A DNA stretch of 64,000 bases from Balneolales bacterium (GTDB lineage: Bacteria; Bacteroidota; Rhodothermia; Balneolales; Cyclonatronaceae), in NCBI GenBank assembly GCA_020832405.1, contig JAFIET010000005.1, positions 1 to 64,000 of the forward strand, in the 5' to 3' direction. Below are positions 15,571 to 27,381 of the stretch, piece by piece. The first letter of the stretch is position 1; every line of letters starts with the position of its first letter. The notes below the pieces were generated by a model. The model made no database searches. It saw only the letters and a program-made list of their open reading frames with translations, and was not told the origin of the DNA. Both the position numbers and the translations under genes were made by a program.

Positions 15571-17940
15571 TCAGGCTTGTTTCAGCTGACGGATCTGCCA
15601 GGCTGCAATCTGACCGAAACCGCAGTTTTCGTCGTTCGGACTTAGCTGATTATGGAAGAGCAGCCTGTGCTCAGGGCCGGCCGTTTGCCTGATCATTCCG
15701 CAAAGCAGCGCATTCTGGAAAACGCCTCCGCTGAAGCCAAGCGTAAATACGCCCAGCTTTCTCGAAAGCTGAAAAACAAGTCCGGCCAGAGTCCGGAAAA
15801 AGCGGATCGCAATCCTTCCCCGTGATTCACCGTAGCTGAGTTCGTCGCAAATTGCAGTAAGCATCAGGCGCGGATCAATTTGTGTGCCGCAGGGGCTAAG
15901 CTGAAGCGGGTACGCTGCCGTATCAGACCGGGCATGAACCGAAGCAAGGGATTCAAGCCGCATTGCAGCTTCGGCTTCATAGTTGTTCCGCATGGTGAGG
16001 CCCAGCAGCGCACTCACGGCATCAATAAGTCTGCCCATAGAGGATGTTTGAAGCCCGTTCGCTCCTGTCAATGCAGCTTTGTTGTAATAACCCCATTCCT
16101 GCTCAGTGAAAAAGCCGGCCAGCAGCTTTTCCCGTCGATCCGCTGCGAAGCCGCAGCTGTGCAGCAGGGAAAGTGCACTAAGGCGCGGTTCCAGGCTCAT
16201 GCGGTCGCCGGCGAGTACCGGAAAGTATTTAAGGTGCACCTCCCTGCGAATACCCTGAGCACAGTACCGCATCACTTCGCCGCCCCAAATCTGCCCGTCG
16301 CCTCCGTAGCCGGTGCCGTCCCAGATAAATCCAAGTACTTCCTGCCCGCTTTGGTGCAGCTCATGCTCGGCCAGCAGGGCTGCAAAATGCGACTCGTGAT
16401 GCCCGATGGATACACACGCTGCGCCGGTTTCGGCGGCCAGTTTTTGAGCAAGCCCGCTGCTGTGACAGGCAGGATGCGCATCGTGCAGCACTACTTCCGG
16501 GCAAAAGCGATACAGCCCGAAAAGATGCTGCCTCACGTGATGCCAGTTTTCCAGCGATTCGTAGGAAGCAAGGTTGCCGAGGTACTGACTCACCAGTAGT
16601 TTTTGGGAGTCAGCCAGGGCGAAGGCATTCTTGAGATCAGCGCCTGCGGCAAAAACAGGCACAGGCAGTTTGCTGAACGGGTTGGGGTGATGATTCGGTG
16701 CCAGGCCCCGGCTTCGTCTCAGCAGAATACGCCGGCCGTGTGTGTCAAATTGGATTACGCTGTCATCCTGCGGCACCATAATATCACGCTCAAAAGTGAG
16801 GGTAAGGCAGGCGAAGCGCCCGCACTGTGCTAAGGCGTCGCGGTCACGATAAATTATCGGCGAGCCGCTCAGGTTGGCACTTGTGGCTATAAGCGGGCGC
16901 GCCAGCCGCTGTAGCAAAATCCGGAGCAGTGGTGCATAAGGAAGCATGATACCGATGCGGTTCAGCCCGGGAGCAACTTCTGCTGAGCAAAGTCCTGATG
17001 CCGGCTTATCTCTGAGCCTGCACAGCACAATCGGTGCCTGCGTGCTTTCAAGAGCTTTTCTTTCGGTTTCGCTCAGTTCGGCATCTCCCTGCACGGTTTC
17101 TATGTCGGGGTACATGAGAGCGAAGGGTTTGGCCGGGCGATTTTTTTGTTTCCGCAGTTGCTTTACGGCATTCGCTGCGCAGGCATCTGCGAGCAGCAGA
17201 TAGCCGCCTACGCCCTTTACAGCGACTGTACTTCCTGCTTCGAGGGCATTGGCTGTCAGATCAAGGCACCGGGCAGGATCTTCGGTAAGCAGCTGAGCTG
17301 AAGCTGCGTAAAGCCGCATGGGTATGGCACAAACCGGGCAGGAGTTGGTCTGGCTGTGCTGTCTTGCAGGCAGAGGGCCTTCCTTTGGTACCGCTCCGCA
17401 GCTGCCCTCATATTCAAGGCGGCAGCTTTCGCACATCGGCAGCTCTGCCATGGTTGTACGGGCCCGGTCGTAGGACAGGCCGGTGATGACCGAGTATCGG
17501 GGGCCGCAGTTCAGGCAGGTTGTGAAAGCATAGCCGTTTCGGCGGTTACCGGCCTGCCGAAGCTCCTGCCTGCAGCGGTCACAAATGGCTCTGTCGGGCG
17601 GTAGCAATGCCCCGGCTGAAGTTTCATCTTGATGATCATTTTCAGGGCTTTCAAGGATGCGGAAAGTATTCGGATGTTCCGGCTCTTCCTCAGCTTCGCC
17701 CTGCTCCTGCACAGTTTTATGCCGGGAGCCGGTAATCAGTGCGTGCTCCGGGGGGTGCGTGAGCAGCAGATTCAGGAAGGTTTCCGCTTCCTCGCGCGTT
17801 CCGTATATCAAAATTTCCAGCCCTTTGCTGCTGTTGCGCACCCATCCCTTCAGCTGCCGAAGCCGGGCTTCACGCAGCACATAAGGCCTGAACCCGACTC
17901 CCTGAACGATGCCTTCAATTAACAAACGATGAGCTTCCAT
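15571..17940 (-). CDS. hypF: Hydrogenase maturation carbamoyltransferase HypF
   Basis: Activates carbamoyl phosphate and transfers the carbamoyl group to HypE for synthesis of the CN ligands of the NiFe(CN)2CO centre. It has 789 residues. Domains in order: acylphosphatase-like (about 1-90, IVQGVGFRPYV), two zinc-finger units (CDRC with CLNC; CESC with CPVC), YrdC-like (about 200-390) and a Kae1-like C-terminal domain (HDAHPACHSS, IGHHESHFAAL, WDGTGYGGDGQIWGGE). All hallmarks are intact. It is the last gene of the hydrogenase block, 67 bases behind hypB, and converges on tyrS. Confidence 0.96.
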   Translation of the reverse strand: MEAHRLLIEGIVQGVGFRPYVLREARLRQLKGWVRNSSKGLEILIYGTREEAETFLNLLLTHPPEHALITGSRHKTVQEQGEAEEEPEHPNTFRILESPENDHQDETSAGALLPPDRAICDRCRQELRQAGNRRNGYAFTTCLNCGPRYSVITGLSYDRARTTMAELPMCESCRLEYEGSCGAVPKEGPLPARQHSQTNSCPVCAIPMRLYAASAQLLTEDPARCLDLTANALEAGSTVAVKGVGGYLLLADACAANAVKQLRKQKNRPAKPFALMYPDIETVQGDAELSETERKALESTQAPIVLCRLRDKPASGLCSAEVAPGLNRIGIMLPYAPLLRILLQRLARPLIATSANLSGSPIIYRDRDALAQCGRFACLTLTFERDIMVPQDDSVIQFDTHGRRILLRRSRGLAPNHHPNPFSKLPVPVFAAGADLKNAFALADSQKLLVSQYLGNLASYESLENWHHVRQHLFGLYRFCPEVVLHDAHPACHSSGLAQKLAAETGAACVSIGHHESHFAALLAEHELHQSGQEVLGFIWDGTGYGGDGQIWGGEVMRYCAQGIRREVHLKYFPVLAGDRMSLEPRLSALSLLHSCGFAADRREKLLAGFFTEQEWGYYNKAALTGANGLQTSSMGRLIDAVSALLGLTMRNNYEAEAAMRLESLASVHARSDTAAYPLQLSPCGTQIDPRLMLTAICDELSYGESRGRIAIRFFRTLAGLVFQLSRKLGVFTLGFSGGVFQNALLCGMIRQTAGPEHRLLFHNQLSPNDENCGFGQIAAWQIRQLKQA

Positions 17941-18007
17941 GTGCTTCTTCGTGTTTTTTTAGGGGGATGTATTCCCGGGCGGGATCCGCATCACCTGATA
18001 AAAAAAC

Positions 18008-18907
18008 TTAGTTGTCCTTTTTTTGCTGCATTTTGCTGCAAAGCCAGCTGTACCAGCTGTCCAGCCCTTCGCCGGATGTGCAGCTAAGCTCGAAGAAGAT
18101 CAGCTTTGGATTTACTTTGCGGGCGTTCGCTTTTGCTTTTTCCAGATCGAAGGGTACGTAAGGTAGCAGATCGGTTTTGTTAATGACGCACACAGCCGAG
18201 CTGTGAAACATATCAGGGTATTTCACAGGCTTGTCGTCTCCTTCGGTTACGCTCATGATAACGACACGAACCTCTTCACCTAAATCAAACATGGCCGGAC
18301 AAACCAGGTTCCCGACATTTTCGATGAACAAAACGCTGTTTTCGGCAGGCTTCAGTTCCTGAAGGGCGTGCAGTACCATGTGGGCATCGAGGTGGCATCC
18401 CTTGCCTGTGTTGATCTGAACGGCGGGGGTGCCCGTAGCACGAATTCGGTCGGCGTCGTTGCTTGTGTGCTGATCTCCTTCAATTACTGCAAAATTGAGC
18501 TCACCTTTCAGGTCGGTAAGGGTTCTTTCGAGCAGCTGTGTTTTCCCCGAGCCCGGCGAGCTTACGAGGTTCAGGGCCAGGATGCCTTTTGCATCACAAT
18601 AGCCCCGGTTGCGCTCAGCGAGTAGTTTGTTTTCGTAAAGAACATCCCGCTCAAGCTGAAGCAGCCTCCCGCCGGTGTCCTGAACGGGTTCATGAGTGTG
18701 ATGATGTTGGTTATCATGATGATCAAGATGATCATCATGCTGGCCGCTATGGCCCGACCCGGCTACGCCTGTGATTCCGTGACTGTGCCCGTGCGCGTGC
18801 GCATGTCCGTGATCGGGGGCATGGGCATGGTCATGCCCATGAGTGTGGCTGTGATGATGGAGGTTTGTGCGGCTTTCAGGGGCGCCGCACCCGCAGGTGA
18901 TGCACAT
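18008..18907 (-). CDS. hypB: Hydrogenase nickel-incorporation GTPase HypB with His-rich N-terminus
   Basis: GTPase that supplies nickel to the HoxH precursor together with HypA. It begins MCITCGCG, the high-affinity metal motif, followed by a histidine-rich tract (about residues 17-73, more than twenty His, many as HxH or HGH) that should store Ni2+ or Zn2+. The G domain has the P-loop SSPGSGKTQL, the ENVGNLVCPAMFDLGE metal-binding switch and NKTDLLPY for guanine specificity. It is 299 residues; the His tract explains the extra length. It lies 12 bases after hypA. Confidence 0.96.
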   Translation of the reverse strand: MCITCGCGAPESRTNLHHHSHTHGHDHAHAPDHGHAHAHGHSHGITGVAGSGHSGQHDDHLDHHDNQHHHTHEPVQDTGGRLLQLERDVLYENKLLAERNRGYCDAKGILALNLVSSPGSGKTQLLERTLTDLKGELNFAVIEGDQHTSNDADRIRATGTPAVQINTGKGCHLDAHMVLHALQELKPAENSVLFIENVGNLVCPAMFDLGEEVRVVIMSVTEGDDKPVKYPDMFHSSAVCVINKTDLLPYVPFDLEKAKANARKVNPKLIFFELSCTSGEGLDSWYSWLCSKMQQKKDN

Positions 18908-18919
18908 AAAATTAGGGGC

Positions 18920-19354
18920 TTAAAATTTTTTGGGTGATGGCTTTGAAGCCGCCACGGGCTGTGTGAGCGGTTCAGCTGCAGCTTCATTGGGATGCAGGCT
19001 GAAGGCAGGCTCATCTTCGAGCCGAAGGCTGCATACCCGCAGAGACTGTCCCTGCCGTATTTCAGGGCCAAACAGGCCGCAGCCGGGGCAGGGCTCGTAC
19101 AGCTGCTTTATTTCGAATACAAGGCCGCAGCCGGTACATGCTGCTTCGCCGGGCAGGTAGCGGATAGTACAGCGGGCGTGTTCGAGCATGCTGCCGCGAA
19201 CAGCCTGTTTCCAGGCGAAGCGGAAAGCAGCGGGCTCAATCGAACTGAGCCGGCCGATTTCCAGACTGATGGCTGATATACGATGCGCACCTGCTATCCG
19301 GGCTTCCTTTTCGGCAATTTCCACAATATTCAGTACTATGGAAAATTCATGCAC
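18920..19354 (-). CDS. hypA: Hydrogenase nickel chaperone HypA
   Basis: Nickel and zinc metallochaperone that partners HypB. It starts MHEFS with the Ni-binding His2; the zinc site is formed by CTGC and CPGC in the second half. The usual length is about 115 residues; this one has 144 because of a 30-residue Pro/Ala-rich tail (after SLRVCSLRLEDEP) of unknown purpose. Its start overlaps the end of the upstream small membrane gene by 8 bases, implying coupled translation. Confidence 0.95.
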   Translation of the reverse strand: MHEFSIVLNIVEIAEKEARIAGAHRISAISLEIGRLSSIEPAAFRFAWKQAVRGSMLEHARCTIRYLPGEAACTGCGLVFEIKQLYEPCPGCGLFGPEIRQGQSLRVCSLRLEDEPAFSLHPNEAAAEPLTQPVAASKPSPKKF

Positions 19355-19574
19355 GGGCTGCTTCCTTTTTGCGGCGTTTCGCCATCATCCAACCGAAGGA
19401 AAGGCCGACCATCAGCACAACAGAGAGCAGTACAATGGCGTGCATGGGTTCGGTGAGGTAGTGCATAAGCGAATGCCCTTCAGTATCCCCGTGACCGGGA
19501 TGGGCCAAAGCTTTGCTGTGCAATAAAAACAGGCTTGTGAAGCATGTAAAAACGTAAATGAAGAAGGATTTCAT
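19347..19574 (-). CDS. Tiny HupE/UreJ-like membrane protein in hydrogenase operon
   Basis: A 75-residue protein: a cleavable-looking signal (about 1-24, ending SKALA), then the mature start HPGHGDTEGHSLMHYLTEPM, one transmembrane helix (AIVLLSVVLMVGLSFGWMM) and a basic tail (AKRRKKEAARA). HPGHG directly after a signal peptide followed by a histidine-containing H-LT-H stretch is the start of HupE/UreJ nickel permeases, but here only that N-terminal portion remains. The gene sits 3 bases after the protease gene and overlaps hypA, so it is firmly part of the hydrogenase operon. A role in periplasmic nickel capture or delivery is inferred. It is too small to be a full HupE permease. Confidence 0.8.
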   Translation of the reverse strand: MKSFFIYVFTCFTSLFLLHSKALAHPGHGDTEGHSLMHYLTEPMHAIVLLSVVLMVGLSFGWMMAKRRKKEAARA

Positions 19575-19577
19575 AGT

Positions 19578-20063
19578 TCAGGGATTTACAGATGATGGTT
19601 TTGGGAGGCGTGAAACGGCTTTGTTTTTGATACCAAAATGCGCGCGCAGAAGCCGGAGCGCTGACATTAGATTTTTTTCCCCCTCTTCGCTGAGGCCGGA
19701 GCCGAGCGCCCACTGCCGCCCTGTTATGGCAAGTACGTAAGCTTTCGGCCGCTGTCCGTAAAGTGTTTCGCAAAGGTAAAGCACGGCTTCCGGACTTTGC
19801 AGATGGGAGGAAAAAAAGTAAGTTTCGGCAGGCTCACAAGCTGAAAGGCGTGCACCGTTTGGCAGCTGCGTTTCGGTAGCATCGGCAAAAATAACTTCGT
19901 TGAATCCGGCTATGAGAGCGGCATCTTCTACCTGTAACTGAAAACGGTGGCCGGTTTCAACCTCCGGCGGCAGTGCAGGCTGAATTTCATCCAAAACCCG
20001 CCACCCCAGGCCGTCGTCGCCCCGGCTTGCGTTGCCGATTCCTATGAGCAGGGTTCGTTTCAT
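19578..20063 (-). CDS. hoxW: Hydrogenase maturation protease (HoxW type)
   Basis: Endopeptidase of the HybD/HoxW family that removes the C-terminal extension of the large subunit after nickel insertion. It has 161 residues with GIGNASRGDDGLG at the N-terminus (acidic metal ligand), a second acidic ligand in IFADATET and the third ligand His in SSHLQSPEAV. It starts 6 bases after the hoxH stop. Its substrate HoxH has Gln at the position where this family normally cuts after His, so any co-variation in its recognition loop is of interest. Confidence 0.9.
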   Translation of the reverse strand: MKRTLLIGIGNASRGDDGLGWRVLDEIQPALPPEVETGHRFQLQVEDAALIAGFNEVIFADATETQLPNGARLSACEPAETYFFSSHLQSPEAVLYLCETLYGQRPKAYVLAITGRQWALGSGLSEEGEKNLMSALRLLRAHFGIKNKAVSRLPKPSSVNP

Positions 20064-20069
20064 ATCGCC

Positions 20070-21530
20070 CTAATTTTTTTCGACCGTTTGCAGCAGCTCT
20101 CCGCCAGCGCTGTACAGCTCGGCCCTGAGAGGCATTTTTCCCATAGCCTGAGTGGCACAGCTCAGGCAGGGATCATAGGCGCGAATGGCAACTTCTACGG
20201 CATTGAGCATGCCGTCGGTGATTTCGCCCTTTCCGCTGATTGTTTTACCGGCTACTTCCCGCACGGCCCGGTTCATGGCATCGTTGTTGTGTGTGGTCGA
20301 TACGATCAGGTTACAGCGGGTAATGAGGCCGCCCTCATCAATTTCGTAATCGTGGGTTAGGGTGCCCCGCGGTGCTTCTATGATGCCGATGCCTTTGCGC
20401 CTTGGTGAGCCGGTGCGTACAAGGTTGTTCTCTTCAAGGATTTGTGGATCGTGCAAAAGCTCCCGCATCACTTCAGCAGCATGCAGGGTTTCAATGAGGC
20501 GGGCCCAGTGGGTGTACATACTGCGGTTGCAGGGTGCCTGCTCTGAAAAAGCGAAAAACGTTTGCCGGGCTGCTTCAGCGAGCGGACTTGGGATGTAATC
20601 ACAAACATTTAGCCGGGCAAGCGGCCCGACCCGGTTCCAGCCCTGCTTCCGGCCCAGCGCTTTCAGGTAGGGGAATTTCATGTAGGACCAGCGCTCAACT
20701 GCTTCGGAAAAATACTGCGCGTAATCATCGGCGGGTACGTCGTTGAGGGTAACCCGACCCTGTGCGTCTTTGGCACGCAGCAGCCCGTCGTACAGCTCGA
20801 GTGCGCCCTCGGGTGAAACCATGCCCAAATGGCCGGACGGGAAGTTTGCAAAATCATCCAGAAAAGCGCGGTTTTGCTGATGGTATCCCAGCATAAACTC
20901 CGTCATCTGCTTCGACCAGGCAATCATGGTTTCAATACCGGGCAGGCCGTTACCATCTCCTTCCAGAAAAAGCTGCCGCGCTTCTTTGGTGAACGTTTTG
21001 TACACGCCGCCCGGAACTGCAAGGGTGCCGTGTATTTTTTTGCCCGCCAGCGCCTTTATCAGTTCCTGACCGTATTTACGCATGGTTATGCCTTTCAGTG
21101 CAAGTTCCCGGTTTGCGACCGCTACGGCTACAACATTGCGCTTTTCGACCGGGGCATCAAGCCCGAAAAGCAGATCGGGAGATGCCAGATAAAAAAAGTG
21201 CAGGGCGTGCGACTGAAACATCTGTGCATAGTGCAGGAGTTTTCGCAGTTTGAAAGCCGCCGGGGGCAGCTCAGCCGGATCAATACCAACCAGCTGATCT
21301 ACCGCTTTGGAGGCAGCGAGATGATGGCTTACCGGGCAGATTCCGCAAAGGCGCTGTACCAGGTTGGGTACCTGCCAGTACGGCGTTCCCTGAATGAAGC
21401 GTTCAAAGCCGCGAAACTCCACGATGTGGAAGAAGCTTTCCGCTACGTTTCCGTGCTCATCCAGGTGAATGGTTACCCGGCCATGACCTTCAACGCGGGT
21501 TACGGGATCGATAGTGATGGTTCGGCTCAT
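20070..21530 (-). CDS. hoxH: NAD-linked [NiFe] hydrogenase large subunit HoxH
   Basis: A 486-residue catalytic subunit carrying the NiFe(CN)2CO centre. The L1 motif is RLCGICPVSHH (60-70, ligands Cys62 and Cys65); the L2 motif is DPCLSCATQ (453-461, ligands Cys455 and Cys458). VEFRGFERFIQG near 37 and EAPRGTLTHDY are typical of the soluble NAD-reducing group 3d enzymes. The precursor keeps a 25-residue C-terminal extension after residue 461. The last residue of the L2 motif, His in nearly all relatives and the protease cleavage point, is Gln here (codon 20148-20150). It lies 15 bases behind hoxUY and 6 before the protease gene. Confidence 0.96.
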   Translation of the reverse strand: MSRTITIDPVTRVEGHGRVTIHLDEHGNVAESFFHIVEFRGFERFIQGTPYWQVPNLVQRLCGICPVSHHLAASKAVDQLVGIDPAELPPAAFKLRKLLHYAQMFQSHALHFFYLASPDLLFGLDAPVEKRNVVAVAVANRELALKGITMRKYGQELIKALAGKKIHGTLAVPGGVYKTFTKEARQLFLEGDGNGLPGIETMIAWSKQMTEFMLGYHQQNRAFLDDFANFPSGHLGMVSPEGALELYDGLLRAKDAQGRVTLNDVPADDYAQYFSEAVERWSYMKFPYLKALGRKQGWNRVGPLARLNVCDYIPSPLAEAARQTFFAFSEQAPCNRSMYTHWARLIETLHAAEVMRELLHDPQILEENNLVRTGSPRRKGIGIIEAPRGTLTHDYEIDEGGLITRCNLIVSTTHNNDAMNRAVREVAGKTISGKGEITDGMLNAVEVAIRAYDPCLSCATQAMGKMPLRAELYSAGGELLQTVEKN

Positions 21531-21545
21531 AGAGCTTTCTCCCGG

Positions 21546-22817
21546 TTAATCGTACTTAAATTCATTGTAGAGAATGGAGAATTTTTCGCCCCAAAGCAGG
21601 TTTTTAACCGCTTTCCAGATGTGCTGTGCGTCGGGCGGACAGCCGGGGATGTTGTAGTCGATTTTTACAACTTCACGGCAGGCATAAACCCGGTTGAGCA
21701 GCTTTGGAAGCTCTTTGTGATAAGGCACCAGGGCTGTTTCGGCATCGTTGGTGCTGCAGTTGAGGTAAGCTTCCTCGAGGCACTCGCCCAGCGGCAGCTG
21801 GTTCCGCATGGCCGGAAGGCCTCCCCAGATGGCACACTCCCCAACTGAAACCAGGATATCGCAGTGCTCACGGAAAGCACGAAGGGTCTCAATATTTTCA
21901 TCGTTGCAGCACCCTCCCTCAATAATTCCCAGATCGCAGCGCCCGCTAAATTTTTTTATATCGTTGATGGGCGACTTGTCGAACTCAACAAGCTCAACGA
22001 GCTCAAGCAGTTCAGTGTCGATATCGAGCATACTCATGTGGCAGCCAAAACAGCCGGCCAGCGAAGTTGTGGCGATGCGTTTTTTCTCTTTCGTTTCGCT
22101 GCTTTTGGCATAGGCCCGCTGCGGGATAAAGTCAGTTCGGGTTGATTTCATATCGAACTTCCGCTGACCAAAAGGTTTGCCCAGGCTTTCGCCGCGCACG
22201 ATGATGGCACCAGTGGGGCAAATCCGCATGGCTTCACGGGCCTGCTCTGTGCTAAGAAGTGCTTCCTGTTCGTAATCGATACCTACAAGCGTGTCGTTGC
22301 CCCGGTTCTGATAGCTGAACACACGCTTTCCGTTGTCGGTGCGCACTTCTTCTACACAGCGCATACACTTGATGCAGCGGTTGTGTTCAAGCAGCATCCG
22401 GCGGGCCTGCCAGTCAATTTTGTGGTCTGTGAAAAGATGCGGAAACCGGCTCACTGAAATGCCGAGCTCGTAGCCCATATGCTGTAAATCGCAGTCACCG
22501 CTTTTTTCACAGGCCGGGCATATATGATTGCCTTCGGCGAACATCATTTCTACCAGTGCCTTGCGCATATCTTTCAGTTCTTCTGTGCCGACTTCAATCA
22601 CCATGCCCTCGCGTACTTTTTCGGTACAGGCCGGTCCGTAGCGCCCGTTTACCTTGCAGGTACAGGTACGGCAGGTGCCCAGCGGCTGATCCATGTTTTT
22701 AAAATAGCACAGTGAGGGGATGAAGATGTCGTTTTCGGCCGCAACATCAACCAGATTTTTGCCCTCATCGGCCAGAATGGTGCGGCCGTCTATGCTAAGG
22801 GTAACATGCTTGTTCAT
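21546..22817 (-). CDS. Fused HoxU-HoxY: diaphorase Fe-S subunit joined to hydrogenase small subunit
   Basis: A 423-residue single reading frame. Residues 1 to about 232 are HoxU, the NuoG-like electron-transfer subunit: [2Fe-2S] ligands Cys37, Cys49, Cys52, Cys64; a His98/Cys100/Cys103/Cys109 site; Cys148, Cys151, Cys154 with Cys200 for a [4Fe-4S] cluster; it ends at the family-typical KPFGQRKFD. Residues 233-245 are a polar linker (around SSETKEKKR). Residues 246-423 are HoxY, the small subunit: cluster ligands in GCFGCHMSMLD (Cys256, Cys259), GECAIWGG (Cys328) and PGCPPD (Cys393). In known enzymes these are two adjacent genes, hoxU and hoxY. No stop codon or frameshift separates them here. 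The fusion would place the diaphorase-to-hydrogenase electron path in one chain. Confidence 0.93.
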   Translation of the reverse strand: MNKHVTLSIDGRTILADEGKNLVDVAAENDIFIPSLCYFKNMDQPLGTCRTCTCKVNGRYGPACTEKVREGMVIEVGTEELKDMRKALVEMMFAEGNHICPACEKSGDCDLQHMGYELGISVSRFPHLFTDHKIDWQARRMLLEHNRCIKCMRCVEEVRTDNGKRVFSYQNRGNDTLVGIDYEQEALLSTEQAREAMRICPTGAIIVRGESLGKPFGQRKFDMKSTRTDFIPQRAYAKSSETKEKKRIATTSLAGCFGCHMSMLDIDTELLELVELVEFDKSPINDIKKFSGRCDLGIIEGGCCNDENIETLRAFREHCDILVSVGECAIWGGLPAMRNQLPLGECLEEAYLNCSTNDAETALVPYHKELPKLLNRVYACREVVKIDYNIPGCPPDAQHIWKAVKNLLWGEKFSILYNEFKYD

Positions 22818-22835
22818 AGGGTGGCTCCTGAGCGG

Positions 22836-24611
22836 CTAAGATTTATAGGCTTCATAATCGGCGGTTGCGCCCTCAAGATCGAATTTCATGTTGAGGCGTT
22901 TATCTGCAGGGTCGGTATGGCTTTCGAAATAGTAAGCGAATTTTTTTAGAGCCGTTTCAATGCTGTTGGTAGCCGTTTTACCCAGCCCGCAGCGGCTTGT
23001 CATGCGCATTAGCCGGCCCCACTGCCTTAGCTCGTCGAGGTCTTCATTTGTGGCAAGCCCGTCGCGGATGCGCTCGAGTTTGCGCTCTACAATGAAGTTA
23101 CCGGCACGGCAGGGTGTGCAGATCCCGCAGGATTCCTTTTTGTAGAAATCAGCATAGTTGAGCAGAATTTCGATGATGTCCCGGTTTTTACTGAAAATCG
23201 TAAGGGCACCCCCGCAGCGGATGTGCTGCGTTAGCATGGAGTCGAACATGGCAATGGGTACATCCAGATCATCAAGGCTGAGCACTGTACCGGACGGGCC
23301 GCTTTCCTGAATGTACCAGGGGTGTTCGGCTTCGCACAGGCTGAGCAGTTGTCGCAGCGTAGTGCCCCAGTTAATCTCGTAAATGCCCGGCTTGCGGCAG
23401 TCGCCTGAAACGCTGATCAGTTTGGTACCGGAGGAGCGCTCAATGCCGTACGACTGATAGTTTTCAACACCGTGCTGCAGGATGCGGGCTGCTGCGCTGA
23501 AGGTTTCCACGTTGTTAACTACCGTTGGCAGCTGCAGGTAACCCCGCTGCACCGGGAAGAACCATTTGGTACGCGGCTCTCCCCGCTTGCCTTCGGCGGA
23601 TTCAATCAGTGCGGTTTCCTCACCGCAAACATAAGAACCTGCACCGATTTGCAGGCGGATGTCGAAATGGAAATCCTTTAACCCGCAACAGTCCCGGCCA
23701 AGCAGCTTTTTGTTGCGGTAGCGCTCAAGCAGCTCAAGCAACGGTTTTTGCAGCCATTGATATTCGGCACGCAGGTAAATCAGCCCGAAATTTGCACCAA
23801 TAGCCCGTGCGCAGGCTGTCATGCCTTCAATTACAGTTTCCGGTACTTTTTGCAGCAATATGCGGTCTTTGAACGTGCCCGGCTCACCCTCATCGGCGTT
23901 GCAGATCACAACTTTATTACCGGTCGGCTGATCGGCAGCGGCCTGCCATTTCATCCAGGTGGGGTAAAAGGCCCCTCCTCGCCCGGCAAGCTTGGTTGTT
24001 TTCAGAGCTCCGATGATGGTATCCGGGCTGTTTGTTTTGAGTTTGGAAACGGCATCACCAGGAGTAAACGCTGTGAAGAAAATTCCGGGCCGCTCACCGG
24101 CGGTGTAGCGGATCGGTGCAGCGGGTTCATCACAAAGTGTTTCAACGGGGGCGCCTTTTTTTAGAGCAGCAATGATTTCCCGGATGCGCAGGGCATTGAG
24201 GCGGGTGAAGGGGTGGAAGTTAATGAGTGCAGCCGGCTCCTGATCGCACAGCCCGATGCAGGGCGTGGCGTAGAGTCCGAAGGTTTCGGTTGCGTCAGTA
24301 GTGCCGTGGCGGGCGCCGGTTTCCCGCTCAAACGCCCGGATAATGCGATCGTAGCCGCTAATGCGGGAAGTCATGCTGTCGTTTACATAAATGGTAAACT
24401 TGCCGGCATGTTTGCGGTGGAAAAAATGATAGAATGATACAACGCCCTCAACCTCAATTGCTGAAATACTGAATTCGCCGGCGAGCCGGCGGATATCTGT
24501 ATCGGAGATGAAACGCTGCCGGTTTTGAATCTCCCAAAGCCGGTCGAGCATGCGGGTTCGGGCGGGTTCAGCGAAACCCGTGTTATGCAGGATGGTGCCT
24601 TGTTGAACCAT
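22836..24611 (-). CDS. hoxF: Hydrogenase diaphorase subunit HoxF (NuoE-NuoF-like fusion)
   Basis: A 591-residue FMN- and NAD(H)-binding subunit. Residues 1 to about 155 are a NuoE-like thioredoxin fold, then a NuoF-like domain: FMN motifs NADEGEPGTFKDR and GAGSYVCGEETALIES, and the [4Fe-4S] ligands in ESCGICTPC plus the Cys in TSRCGLG. The layout matches the Cupriavidus-type HoxF of about 600 residues. In the E-like domain only Cys118 and Cys122 (TPCIGLCDQ) remain; the first cysteine pair is replaced by VNDS, so that cluster is probably absent. The glycine loop reads GRGGAFYPTW instead of the usual GRGGAGFPTG. I choose ATG 24611; an in-frame TTG 15 bases upstream is less likely. It is 18 bases from hoxUY. 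Confidence 0.94.
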   Translation of the reverse strand: MVQQGTILHNTGFAEPARTRMLDRLWEIQNRQRFISDTDIRRLAGEFSISAIEVEGVVSFYHFFHRKHAGKFTIYVNDSMTSRISGYDRIIRAFERETGARHGTTDATETFGLYATPCIGLCDQEPAALINFHPFTRLNALRIREIIAALKKGAPVETLCDEPAAPIRYTAGERPGIFFTAFTPGDAVSKLKTNSPDTIIGALKTTKLAGRGGAFYPTWMKWQAAADQPTGNKVVICNADEGEPGTFKDRILLQKVPETVIEGMTACARAIGANFGLIYLRAEYQWLQKPLLELLERYRNKKLLGRDCCGLKDFHFDIRLQIGAGSYVCGEETALIESAEGKRGEPRTKWFFPVQRGYLQLPTVVNNVETFSAAARILQHGVENYQSYGIERSSGTKLISVSGDCRKPGIYEINWGTTLRQLLSLCEAEHPWYIQESGPSGTVLSLDDLDVPIAMFDSMLTQHIRCGGALTIFSKNRDIIEILLNYADFYKKESCGICTPCRAGNFIVERKLERIRDGLATNEDLDELRQWGRLMRMTSRCGLGKTATNSIETALKKFAYYFESHTDPADKRLNMKFDLEGATADYEAYKS

Positions 24612-24894
24612 TGTGAACAGCCTCAACAGTTTGGTTTTCCGGGTGAAGCGGGCTGCAAAGGGCAGGCCGCTTTCTGTTCCTGGCAGGCTATCGGACTGGA
24701 ATCTTTTGAATTTGCGTTTTATAGGTAGTTACAGCCGATAAGCTGCACTTGCGCTGCTTCCGGGAAGGTTCCGTGTGAGGAAAACTACAGAAGCATTATC
24801 CTTATAATCGAATCGTGATATTGTAATTATATTAATGATTTGTAATGATTCTTCCAAGTAAAACCACTGTACAAGAAAGTGAGCTGAAGGGCAT
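24612..24894 (-). promoter_or_regulatory. Probable promoter region of the hoxF-hoxUY-hoxH operon
   Basis: A 283-base gene-free gap between hypE and hoxF, the only large break in the hydrogenase block. It contains a very A/T-rich core (24800-24850) with three consecutive 10-base units resembling TGTAATGATT at 24822-24850, spaced one helical turn apart, and a TAATATAAT-like -10 candidate on the minus strand. It may let structural genes be transcribed separately from hypCDE. No known operator family is recognised. Confidence 0.45.
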
Positions 24895-25959
24895 TCAGCA
24901 GATGCGGGGCAGCAGTTCGCCGCGCATGGGCGGAAGCACCCGCCGGCCGCCGATGGTGCTGTTCAGTACAACAGGTGCCCGGAGGTCAGAACGAAGCCGG
25001 CCGATGAGGGCAGCCTGTTGCCCGAAACGATGGCTGCGCAGCAGTGCAAGGGCTTCTGTTGCTTTATGTGCTGCTACAGCGGCCACAAAAACACCTTCGT
25101 TAGCCACAAATAGCGGATCAAGACCGAGCATTTCACAGGCTCCGGCTACTTCTTGCTCTACCGGCAGGGCCGACTCCTCAATTTCAGCACTGAACCTGCT
25201 TTGAGATGTGATTTCGTGCAGGATGGTGCCCACTCCGCCCCGGGTTGCGTCGCGCATGAGGTGAAGGTCCGTTCCAAGAGCATCGCTCAGCATCCCGCAG
25301 ATTTCATGCAGAGGCTGTGTGTCGCTTTGGATGCTTGTTTCGAAACCGATGCCTTTGCGCCGGCTCATTACGGCAATGCCATGCCGGGCAAGAGGGCCGC
25401 TAACAAGCAGGCAGTCATTATCTTTTAAAAAAGAAACGCCAAGCTGTACACCGACCCGCAGGCGCCCGATGCCGCTTGTGTTAATGAAAATACCGTCCCC
25501 TTTTCCCCGCTCCAGAACTTTGGTGTCGCCGGTTACGATTGCTGCCCCGGCAGCGGCACAGCAGCGCCTGATGCTCTGCAGAATGCGAAGGAAGGATGCT
25601 GAGGAAAAGCCTTCTTCCAAAATAAACGCAAGCGACAGATACTGCGGTAGCGCTCCGCTTACGGCAAGGTCGTTTATGGTGCCGTTAACAGCAAGATCAC
25701 CTATATCGCCGCCGGGAAAAAACAGGGGGGAAACAACAAAAGTATCGGTGCTGAAGGCAAAGGGGCCTTCCACCTGTAAGATGGCGGCATCTTCCTGTTT
25801 TTGGAGCCAGTCGTTGTTCAGGCATTCAAACACGTACTGTTGAAGCAGCTGCCGCATCTGTGTGCCGCCGCTGCCATGGCTGAGCGTAATTTGTGTAAAC
25901 TCAGCCGCCGGAGCCGCACAGCTGAGCTTTACGACGGGGCGTTTGTCTTCAGCTTTCAT
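24895..25959 (-). CDS. hypE: Hydrogenase maturation protein HypE
   Basis: Dehydrates the carbamoyl group received from HypF on its C-terminal Cys to a thiocyanate, the CN donor for the active-site iron. It belongs to the PurM/SelD ATP-binding superfamily: LSHGSGGTQM at the start, GGDIGDLAVNGTINDLAVSG, VTGDTKVLERGKGDG and MRDATRGGVGTILHE. It ends in LPRIC with the essential terminal cysteine. The start is ATG 25959, overlapping hypD by 11 bases; an upstream in-frame start at 25995 would overlap 47 bases and lacks homology. 354 residues. Confidence 0.96.
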   Translation of the reverse strand: MKAEDKRPVVKLSCAAPAAEFTQITLSHGSGGTQMRQLLQQYVFECLNNDWLQKQEDAAILQVEGPFAFSTDTFVVSPLFFPGGDIGDLAVNGTINDLAVSGALPQYLSLAFILEEGFSSASFLRILQSIRRCCAAAGAAIVTGDTKVLERGKGDGIFINTSGIGRLRVGVQLGVSFLKDNDCLLVSGPLARHGIAVMSRRKGIGFETSIQSDTQPLHEICGMLSDALGTDLHLMRDATRGGVGTILHEITSQSRFSAEIEESALPVEQEVAGACEMLGLDPLFVANEGVFVAAVAAHKATEALALLRSHRFGQQAALIGRLRSDLRAPVVLNSTIGGRRVLPPMRGELLPRIC

Positions 25960-27064
25960 GATGCCACCCGCCCACATACTGATAATAGGCAGCACAGGCG
26001 CCCTCGCTGCTCACCATAGGCGCGCCAAGCGGTGTTTCCGGTGTGCAGCCTGTGCCGAAATATTGACACTGTGCGGGTTTTATGAGCCCTTTCATTACTT
26101 CACCAGAACGGCACTGCTGCTGCTGCGCCGCCGTTGAAGCTGCCGGAAGCTCGGGGTTAATCCCGAATTTCTGAAAAGCATCAAATGCAGACCATACAGA
26201 CCTCAGCCTGAGGCCGCTTTCCGGAATTTCGCCTATTCCCCGCCACTCCCGCAAGCTCTTTTCAAAAACAGCATCCGCTGTTTTTATGGCAAAAGGGTTT
26301 CCTTCCGGATGAACGGCCCTGCGGTATTGATTTACGAGTTCTGCACGGCTGCTTTCAAGCAGCTCTGCTGCCGTGCAGATACCCTGAAGCAGATCGACCG
26401 GCTCGAAACCGGTAACCACAACCGGAACCTGCCAGCGTTTCACAAAGGGCTCATACACCTGCATACCAGTAACTGCACACACATGGCCTGCGGCTAAAAA
26501 AGCGTTTACCCGTGTTTCAGGGTCAGACATAATGGCGGTCATTGCAGGAGGCACAAGCACGTGAGCAGTGAGCAGGCTGTAGTTTTTGAGGCCGAGCTGA
26601 TGCGCCTGCAGCACCGAAAGCGCGTTGGCCGGTGCGGTTGTTTCGAAGCCGACCGCAAAAAAGACAACTTCCCGATCGGGCTGCTGCTGTGCCAGCTGCA
26701 CAGCTTCGTAGGGGGCGTACACCACGCGCACATCAGCTCCCTGTGCACGGGCCTGCAACAGGCTTCCGCTGCTGCCCGGTACCCGGAGCATATCCCCGAA
26801 TGAGCAAAGAATAACGTTATGATCGAGGGCCAGCGAAACAGCGGTATCAATATGGCTTACAGGTGTGACACAAACCGGACACCCGGGGCCGTGAATCATA
26901 CTGATTTCGGGTGGCAGCATGTCAAGGATACCGTGCCGTACAAGGCCGTGCGTCTGACCGCCGCAAACTTCCATGATGTGCCATTTTTTTGACACTGTTT
27001 TCCGGAGTCGCTCAAGGAGCCGTTTAACCAGCCGGGCATCACGGTATTCGGTGAGATGTTTCAT
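25949..27064 (-). CDS. hypD: Hydrogenase maturation protein HypD
   Basis: Fe-S protein that, with HypC, holds the Fe(CN)2CO unit during assembly. It has 371 residues with CGGQTH, GPGCPVCVTP and FFAVGFETTAPA, the three conserved blocks, and a Cys-containing C-terminal region for the [4Fe-4S] cluster (QCQYFGTGCTPE ... SSEGACAAYY). It overlaps hypC by four bases (ATGA) and hypE by eleven, so hypCDE forms one translationally coupled unit. Confidence 0.96.
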   Translation of the reverse strand: MKHLTEYRDARLVKRLLERLRKTVSKKWHIMEVCGGQTHGLVRHGILDMLPPEISMIHGPGCPVCVTPVSHIDTAVSLALDHNVILCSFGDMLRVPGSSGSLLQARAQGADVRVVYAPYEAVQLAQQQPDREVVFFAVGFETTAPANALSVLQAHQLGLKNYSLLTAHVLVPPAMTAIMSDPETRVNAFLAAGHVCAVTGMQVYEPFVKRWQVPVVVTGFEPVDLLQGICTAAELLESSRAELVNQYRRAVHPEGNPFAIKTADAVFEKSLREWRGIGEIPESGLRLRSVWSAFDAFQKFGINPELPAASTAAQQQQCRSGEVMKGLIKPAQCQYFGTGCTPETPLGAPMVSSEGACAAYYQYVGGWHHES

Positions 27065-27381
27065 GCCTGTGCGCTTTTTGGAGGAGCGGGCCGGGCTTTC
27101 TGAGGAGCCGGGGAGCCGGGCGCTTCTTCAGATTCAGGACCAAGTTCGTCGAGTTCACCAATTTGCTTGAGGTACCGGAAAGTTTCTTCCGCCTCTGCTT
27201 CATCAACAACACTTAGCGCCACACCAACATGTACGAGTACGTAATCGCCAGGCTGTGCCTGTGGCACGAAGCAGAGGTTTACATCACGGCGGATGCCACC
27301 AAATGACACTACGGCCGGCCGGTTAACTTCGTCGGCAACAGGCGAGACCGAAAGTACTTTTCCGGGAATGGCAAGACACAT
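27061..27381 (-). CDS. hypC: Hydrogenase assembly chaperone HypC
   Basis: Small chaperone binding HypD and the HoxH precursor. It starts MCLAIPGKV with the essential Cys2 and continues with the beta-barrel typical of HypC (VSFGGIRRDVNL, GDYVLVHVGVAL). It has 106 residues, longer than the usual 75-95 because of a Pro/Ala/Glu-rich tail after ELDELGPESE. It is the first gene of the block; the divergent xth lies upstream. Confidence 0.95.
   Translation of the reverse strand: MCLAIPGKVLSVSPVADEVNRPAVVSFGGIRRDVNLCFVPQAQPGDYVLVHVGVALSVVDEAEAEETFRYLKQIGELDELGPESEEAPGSPAPQKARPAPPKSAQA

Follow-up and report, generated by a model that had tools for sequence, protein, structure and literature searches.

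A natural HoxU-HoxY gene fusion in a putative NAD-linked group 3d [NiFe]-hydrogenase of Bacteroidetes and their kin

The locus described here raises the question of whether one long frame, in which the diaphorase iron-sulfur subunit HoxU is followed by the hydrogenase small subunit HoxY, is a genuine fused gene, and, if so, to which enzyme it belongs and how it arose. The frame lies in a complete hyp-hox cluster on a single strand (hypC, hypD, hypE, hoxF, hoxUY, hoxH, hoxW, hypA, hypB, hypF; Table 1) of the window, by which we mean the whole stretch of 64,000 nucleotides that was analysed. Our reading, to which we give a probability of about 0.88, is that hoxUY encodes a fused subunit of a cytoplasmic group 3d NAD-linked HoxF-HoxUY-HoxH enzyme, which would have originated by loss of a stop codon and since been passed on, by inheritance and transfer, in working form.

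Table 1. Coordinates of the hyp-hox genes and of the parts of the fused product in the window
Feature	Coordinates	Strand	Characteristics and basis
hypC	27061..27381	minus	TIGR00074
hypD	25949..27064	minus	TIGR00075
hypE	24895..25995	minus	TIGR02124
hoxF (HoxE-like + NuoF-like, one chain)	22836..24626	minus	PF01257 + PF01512 + PF10589
hoxUY, fused HoxU-HoxY	21546..22817	minus	423 aa, ATG, TAA; ORF with Pfam, NCBIfam and PDB matches
HoxU half, residues 1-222	22152..22817	minus	ligands for one [2Fe-2S] and two [4Fe-4S]; NF005745
linker, residues 223-245	22083..22151	minus	23 residues, polar, predicted coil; 21-28 residues in relatives
HoxY half, residues 246-423	21549..22082	minus	proximal [4Fe-4S] ligands C256, C259, C328, C393; PF01058
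hoxH, NiFe large subunit	20070..21530	minus	PF00374; RLCGIC ... DPCLSCATQ
HoxH Gln461 (CAG), usual His of DPCxxCxxH, expected processing site	20148..20150	minus	sequence alignment
hoxW, hydrogenase maturation protease	19578..20063	minus	TIGR00072
hypA	18920..19354	minus	TIGR00100 match slightly under its cut-off
hypB, His-rich N-terminus	18008..18907	minus	TIGR00073
hypF	15571..17940	minus	TIGR00143

The first-pass annotation had proposed that HoxU and HoxY share one unbroken frame with a polar linker between them, and the ORF, the Pfam and NCBIfam profiles and the PDB matches all agreed with this. The frame runs from 22817 down to 21546 without an internal stop over 423 codons, and AGGAG stands upstream of its ATG. 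The HoxU profile NF005745 covered residues 5-219 of the product (E=7e-51), NF040763, a profile for the HydA of NADH-dependent [FeFe]-hydrogenases, matched residues 5-206, and the NiFe small-subunit family PF01058 covered residues 256-406 (E=2e-26), while the PDB matches of the two halves were chains B (HoxU) and C (HoxY) of 5xf9, the NAD-reducing soluble hydrogenase of Hydrogenophilus thermoluteolus. Of the residue limits given earlier, the start of HoxY at 246 was retained, whereas the HoxU part, formerly 1-232, was shortened to 1-222, which leaves residues 223-245 to the linker.

An alignment of 53 sequences showed that all twelve cluster ligands of the HoxU half (C37/C49/C52/C64, H98/C100/C103/C109 and C148/C151/C154/C200) and all four of the HoxY half were invariant, and the ligands aligned with those of Cupriavidus necator HoxU and HoxY, as expected from the earlier claim that both sets are complete. 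The dN/dS ratio was 0.02-0.12 for the HoxU half and 0.01-0.07 for the HoxY half, i.e. both are under strong purifying selection. Because all cluster ligands are present and selection is strong, the fused product is very likely functional, which is also how it had appeared at first sight.

The structure of the product was predicted with AlphaFold2 from an alignment of 123 rows, from which plasmid rows were left out. The deeper alignment raised the pLDDT from 64, obtained with the 53 sequences, to 78, with a pTM of 0.62; confidence is thus moderate, and the relative placing of the two halves is unreliable. The predicted halves matched 5xf9_B and 5xf9_C with TM-scores, by target length, of 0.76 and 0.74. 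Residues 208-245 were predicted to be coil, and the lowest confidence within the linker fell at residues 231-240.

A scan of public genomes for other proteins with HoxU and HoxY in this order, as had been suggested, returned at least 54 non-redundant fused loci including that of the window, from independent assemblies and with the frame unbroken in each, and these formed a single clade. Of the best 80 loci, 50 carried the fusion (L073-L121 and L134), while in the remaining 30 hoxU and hoxY were split by one or two stops; the scan favours in-frame neighbours in its ranking, all these counts are minimum values, and fusions with less than about 46% identity may have been missed. Relatives with the same unbroken frame occurred at 72-74% identity. 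Seven named isolates were among the carriers: Lutibacter citreus, Lutibacter agarilyticus DSM 29150, Winogradskyella alexanderae, Lutimonas halocynthiae CECT 8444, Ginsengibacter hankyongi, Pontibacter ruber and Botryobacter ruber. One might suspect that faulty sequencing or assembly had joined two genes, given that the genome to which the window belongs is a draft assembly in 188 contigs and that in the closest split relatives the two genes share a frame interrupted by one or two stops. However, the same open frame recurs across these independent assemblies, the seven isolates included, and the linker is biased toward synonymous change; we therefore regard an artefact as practically negligible and take the fusion to be real.

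The carriers are mostly Bacteroidetes and their kin. The fusion was present in 6/394 sampled genomes of the window's phylum and in 10/129 genomes of its order, in which two families (f1 and f4) were of the fused type and a third (f3) of the split type. Three metagenome-assembled genomes with the fusion carry labels outside Bacteroidota and Balneolota, one of them Acidobacteria (L107) and two Chlorobiota (L109 and L117). L107 nested among Flavobacteriaceae in a tree built from the concatenated HoxU and HoxY halves, linker excluded (U+Y tree), possibly through transfer or misbinning, and it was the only carrier among 297 genomes of the phylum of its label. None of the four plasmid records covering most of the query carried the fusion; the homologues were unfused in all of them.

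We then asked whether the fusion had arisen more than once. On the U+Y tree, fused versus split was a single change, and the single fused clade was supported at 100/100 with four long-branched rows omitted. Support fell to 74/44 once C. necator and other distant rows were included, because C. necator has an uncertain position near the base. One change, with a support of 99, was likewise seen on the HoxH tree. The fusion thus probably arose once.

The nearest split homologues, from Bacteroidales, Spirochaetes, Aminicenantes and another Balneolales family, have hoxU adjoining hoxY, and in many split relatives the two genes are in the same frame, mostly with 54-75 nt between the conserved edges and one or two stops. 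Since the split genes are adjacent, often in frame and only one or two stops apart, the fusion most likely came from adjacent hoxU and hoxY genes through loss of the hoxU stop. Fused linkers measure 21-28 residues (63-84 nt), which is similar to the split spacing, and seven of them, mostly from Chitinophagaceae, retain M[EGS]KKIVAT, comparable to the split hoxY starts MSKPVIAT and MEKKIIAT. Drift of the linker after loss of the hoxU stop would be the simplest history.

The linker is poorly conserved in sequence. Its dN/dS ranged from near 0 to 0.6, with a clear excess of synonymous change in two of the three usable pairs and a value of 0.60 in the third; the excess makes it very likely that the linker is translated in frame. 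A separate HoxY could still be made, by initiation at an internal start codon in or near the linker or by later proteolytic cleavage there: codon 223 of the window's hoxUY is an in-frame ATG that follows a GGAAG, the linkers of several relatives contain ATG codons, some of them at the former hoxY start, and a linker predicted to be unstructured would be cleavable. However, ATG, GTG and TTG are all absent from 22 of the 54 linkers, so internal initiation of HoxY cannot be general, and a separately initiated HoxY was rejected as the general product. The ATG at residue 223 of the window is moreover unconserved, and purifying selection acted on the linker in those two pairs. We consider production of a separate HoxY unlikely, and prefer a single chain.

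The features of the cluster point to group 3d. HoxU has one [2Fe-2S] and two [4Fe-4S] sites and HoxY the four proximal-cluster cysteines, as in this group, HoxH carries both NiFe ligand motifs (RxCGxC as RLCGIC and DPCxxC as DPCLSC), and a NuoF-like FMN/NAD(H) domain with a [4Fe-4S] site adjoins the hydrogenase genes (PF01512 and PF10589 in 22836-24626). The His-ended form DPCxxCxxH, which is typical of group 3d without strictly defining it, is absent from the window's HoxH. On the U+Y tree, built with less than the full reference set of other groups, C. necator was the characterised row nearest the fused clade, on a long branch. Specificity for NAD is predicted from homology. A bifurcating or ferredoxin-linked enzyme resembling HydABCSL would also have been conceivable, as the HoxU half matched the N-terminus of NiFe-HydA (7t2r_A) too. 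However, the HoxU half, at 222 residues, is without the additional length that takes NiFe-HydA to 692 aa, the HoxE-like and HoxF parts form one chain, as in non-bifurcating HoxF (PMC8880783), and the U+Y tree and the closest PDB and plasmid matches all point to soluble NAD-reducing enzymes. This alternative is very improbable, and we retain the NAD-linked assignment. Apart from the fusion, the enzyme is an ordinary group 3d hydrogenase; no second NiFe large subunit was found in the same genome and no Rfam match in the region.

Comparison with the enzymes of C. necator H16 (HoxFUYHI2) and H. thermoluteolus (HoxFUYH, 5xf9) showed the same subunit content and cluster ligands, HoxE and HoxF in a single chain that lacks the full [2Fe-2S] cysteine set of HoxE, and HoxW and hyp genes nearby, as in the window. 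In both systems, however, HoxU and HoxY are separate chains, the C. necator genes overlapping by 4 nt, and the HoxH motif of C. necator ends in His while that of the window ends in Gln. A HoxE-like and a HoxF-like part in one chain is normal for this type (PMC8880783), and C. necator HoxF has the same layout. Cyanobacterial HoxEFUYH, in contrast, has a separate HoxE with its own [2Fe-2S] cluster; the first cysteines of Acaryochloris HoxE are missing from the HoxE-like part here. The unfused 3d enzymes of Bacteroidales, Spirochaetes and Aminicenantes (L122-L152) share the order F-U-Y-H, and their identities are 40-50% for HoxU and about 60% for HoxY, but one or two stops part hoxU from hoxY. 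The HydA of NADH-dependent [FeFe]-hydrogenases likewise combines, within a single polypeptide, a HoxU-like cluster arm and a hydrogenase module; this is an analogy in design, its partner being the H-cluster domain rather than a NiFe small subunit. The electron-bifurcating NiFe-HydABCSL (7t2r) has a HydA N-terminus and a small subunit related to the two halves of hoxUY, but its HydA is longer, and HydB, HydC and the small subunit are separate, unlike here. The HypB of the window has a long His-rich stretch at its N-terminus, which probably serves nickel storage.

In the proposed working of the enzyme, HoxH would split or make H2, and electrons leaving HoxH would cross the HoxY half by its proximal [4Fe-4S] cluster and the HoxU half by its [4Fe-4S] and [2Fe-2S] clusters, and would reach NAD+ by way of the [4Fe-4S] cluster and FMN of HoxF, or would follow the whole path in reverse. 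The step between HoxY and HoxU would fall within one chain. The quaternary arrangement of the unfused enzyme would presumably be kept, with HoxY permanently incorporated into the diaphorase arm and only HoxF and HoxH detachable. It is plausible that the fusion would remove dissociation into hydrogenase and diaphorase halves, and it may lock the stoichiometry of the two subunits, both of which had been suggested earlier. An alternative reading is that the stop loss was harmless and was fixed neutrally. The earlier premise that other soluble hydrogenases dissociate in this way is true of the Rhodococcus opacus enzyme, which comes apart easily, but not of that of Ralstonia eutropha, which is stable (PMC3189943).

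The conserved His of DPCxxCxxH is the residue after which processing proteases cut (PMC5299533). HoxH reads DPCLSCATQ in the window and in a nested subclade of Balneolaceae, Chitinophagaceae, Cyclobacteriaceae and Flammeovirgaceae (20 tree rows), while His is kept in the other fused and split relatives with a readable HoxH C-terminus. This distribution required a single change on the HoxH tree, against two on the U+Y tree, and HoxW is still present. A tentative and rather doubtful extension is that the module boundary has moved: HoxY would be built into the diaphorase arm, mature HoxH would dock last as the only detachable hydrogenase part, which could prevent dissociation in respiring hosts, and the later His-to-Gln change of HoxH would belong to a modified course of maturation.

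COX1 was found in 45/45 searched fused-gene genomes (L073-L121 and L134) versus 13/30 split-gene genomes (L122-L152). A tie between the fusion and aerobic life was considered but is not claimed, since a single origin amounts to one evolutionary contrast and C. necator is an aerobe yet unfused.

In three genomes of the same genus and one of the same family, cvpA-tyrS-xthA-gltX form one unbroken run into which no hox gene is inserted, whereas in the window the entire 11.8 kb cluster (15571-27381) lies between tyrS and xthA, with a GC content of 54.7% versus 51.2% in the rest of the window. Because of these uninterrupted tyrS-xthA junctions and the GC contrast, the cluster probably moves as a self-sufficient cassette. 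Loss of the cluster from these relatives, instead of its gain, is the alternative. In the same-family carriers (G006, G007 and G010) the hox genes and tyrS are on separate contigs.

The first-pass annotation had set the fusion apart from known enzymes; it proved common in its own clade, with the 54 or more loci described above, which goes half way toward the refutation that the annotation itself had named, commonness among related hydrogenases. No description of a natural HoxU-HoxY fusion was found in the open-licence literature searched, and this inherited gene fusion is apparently undescribed so far. Annotation pipelines built around separate HoxU and HoxY proteins may give the fused protein a wrong label. 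Soluble NAD-reducing hydrogenases are investigated for use in cofactor regeneration, and subunit loss is among the suspected reasons for their instability (PMC12809855, PMC3189943). A natural covalent connection of HoxU with HoxY, widely inherited and present in culturable bacteria, makes stabilisation by the tying together of modules directly testable.
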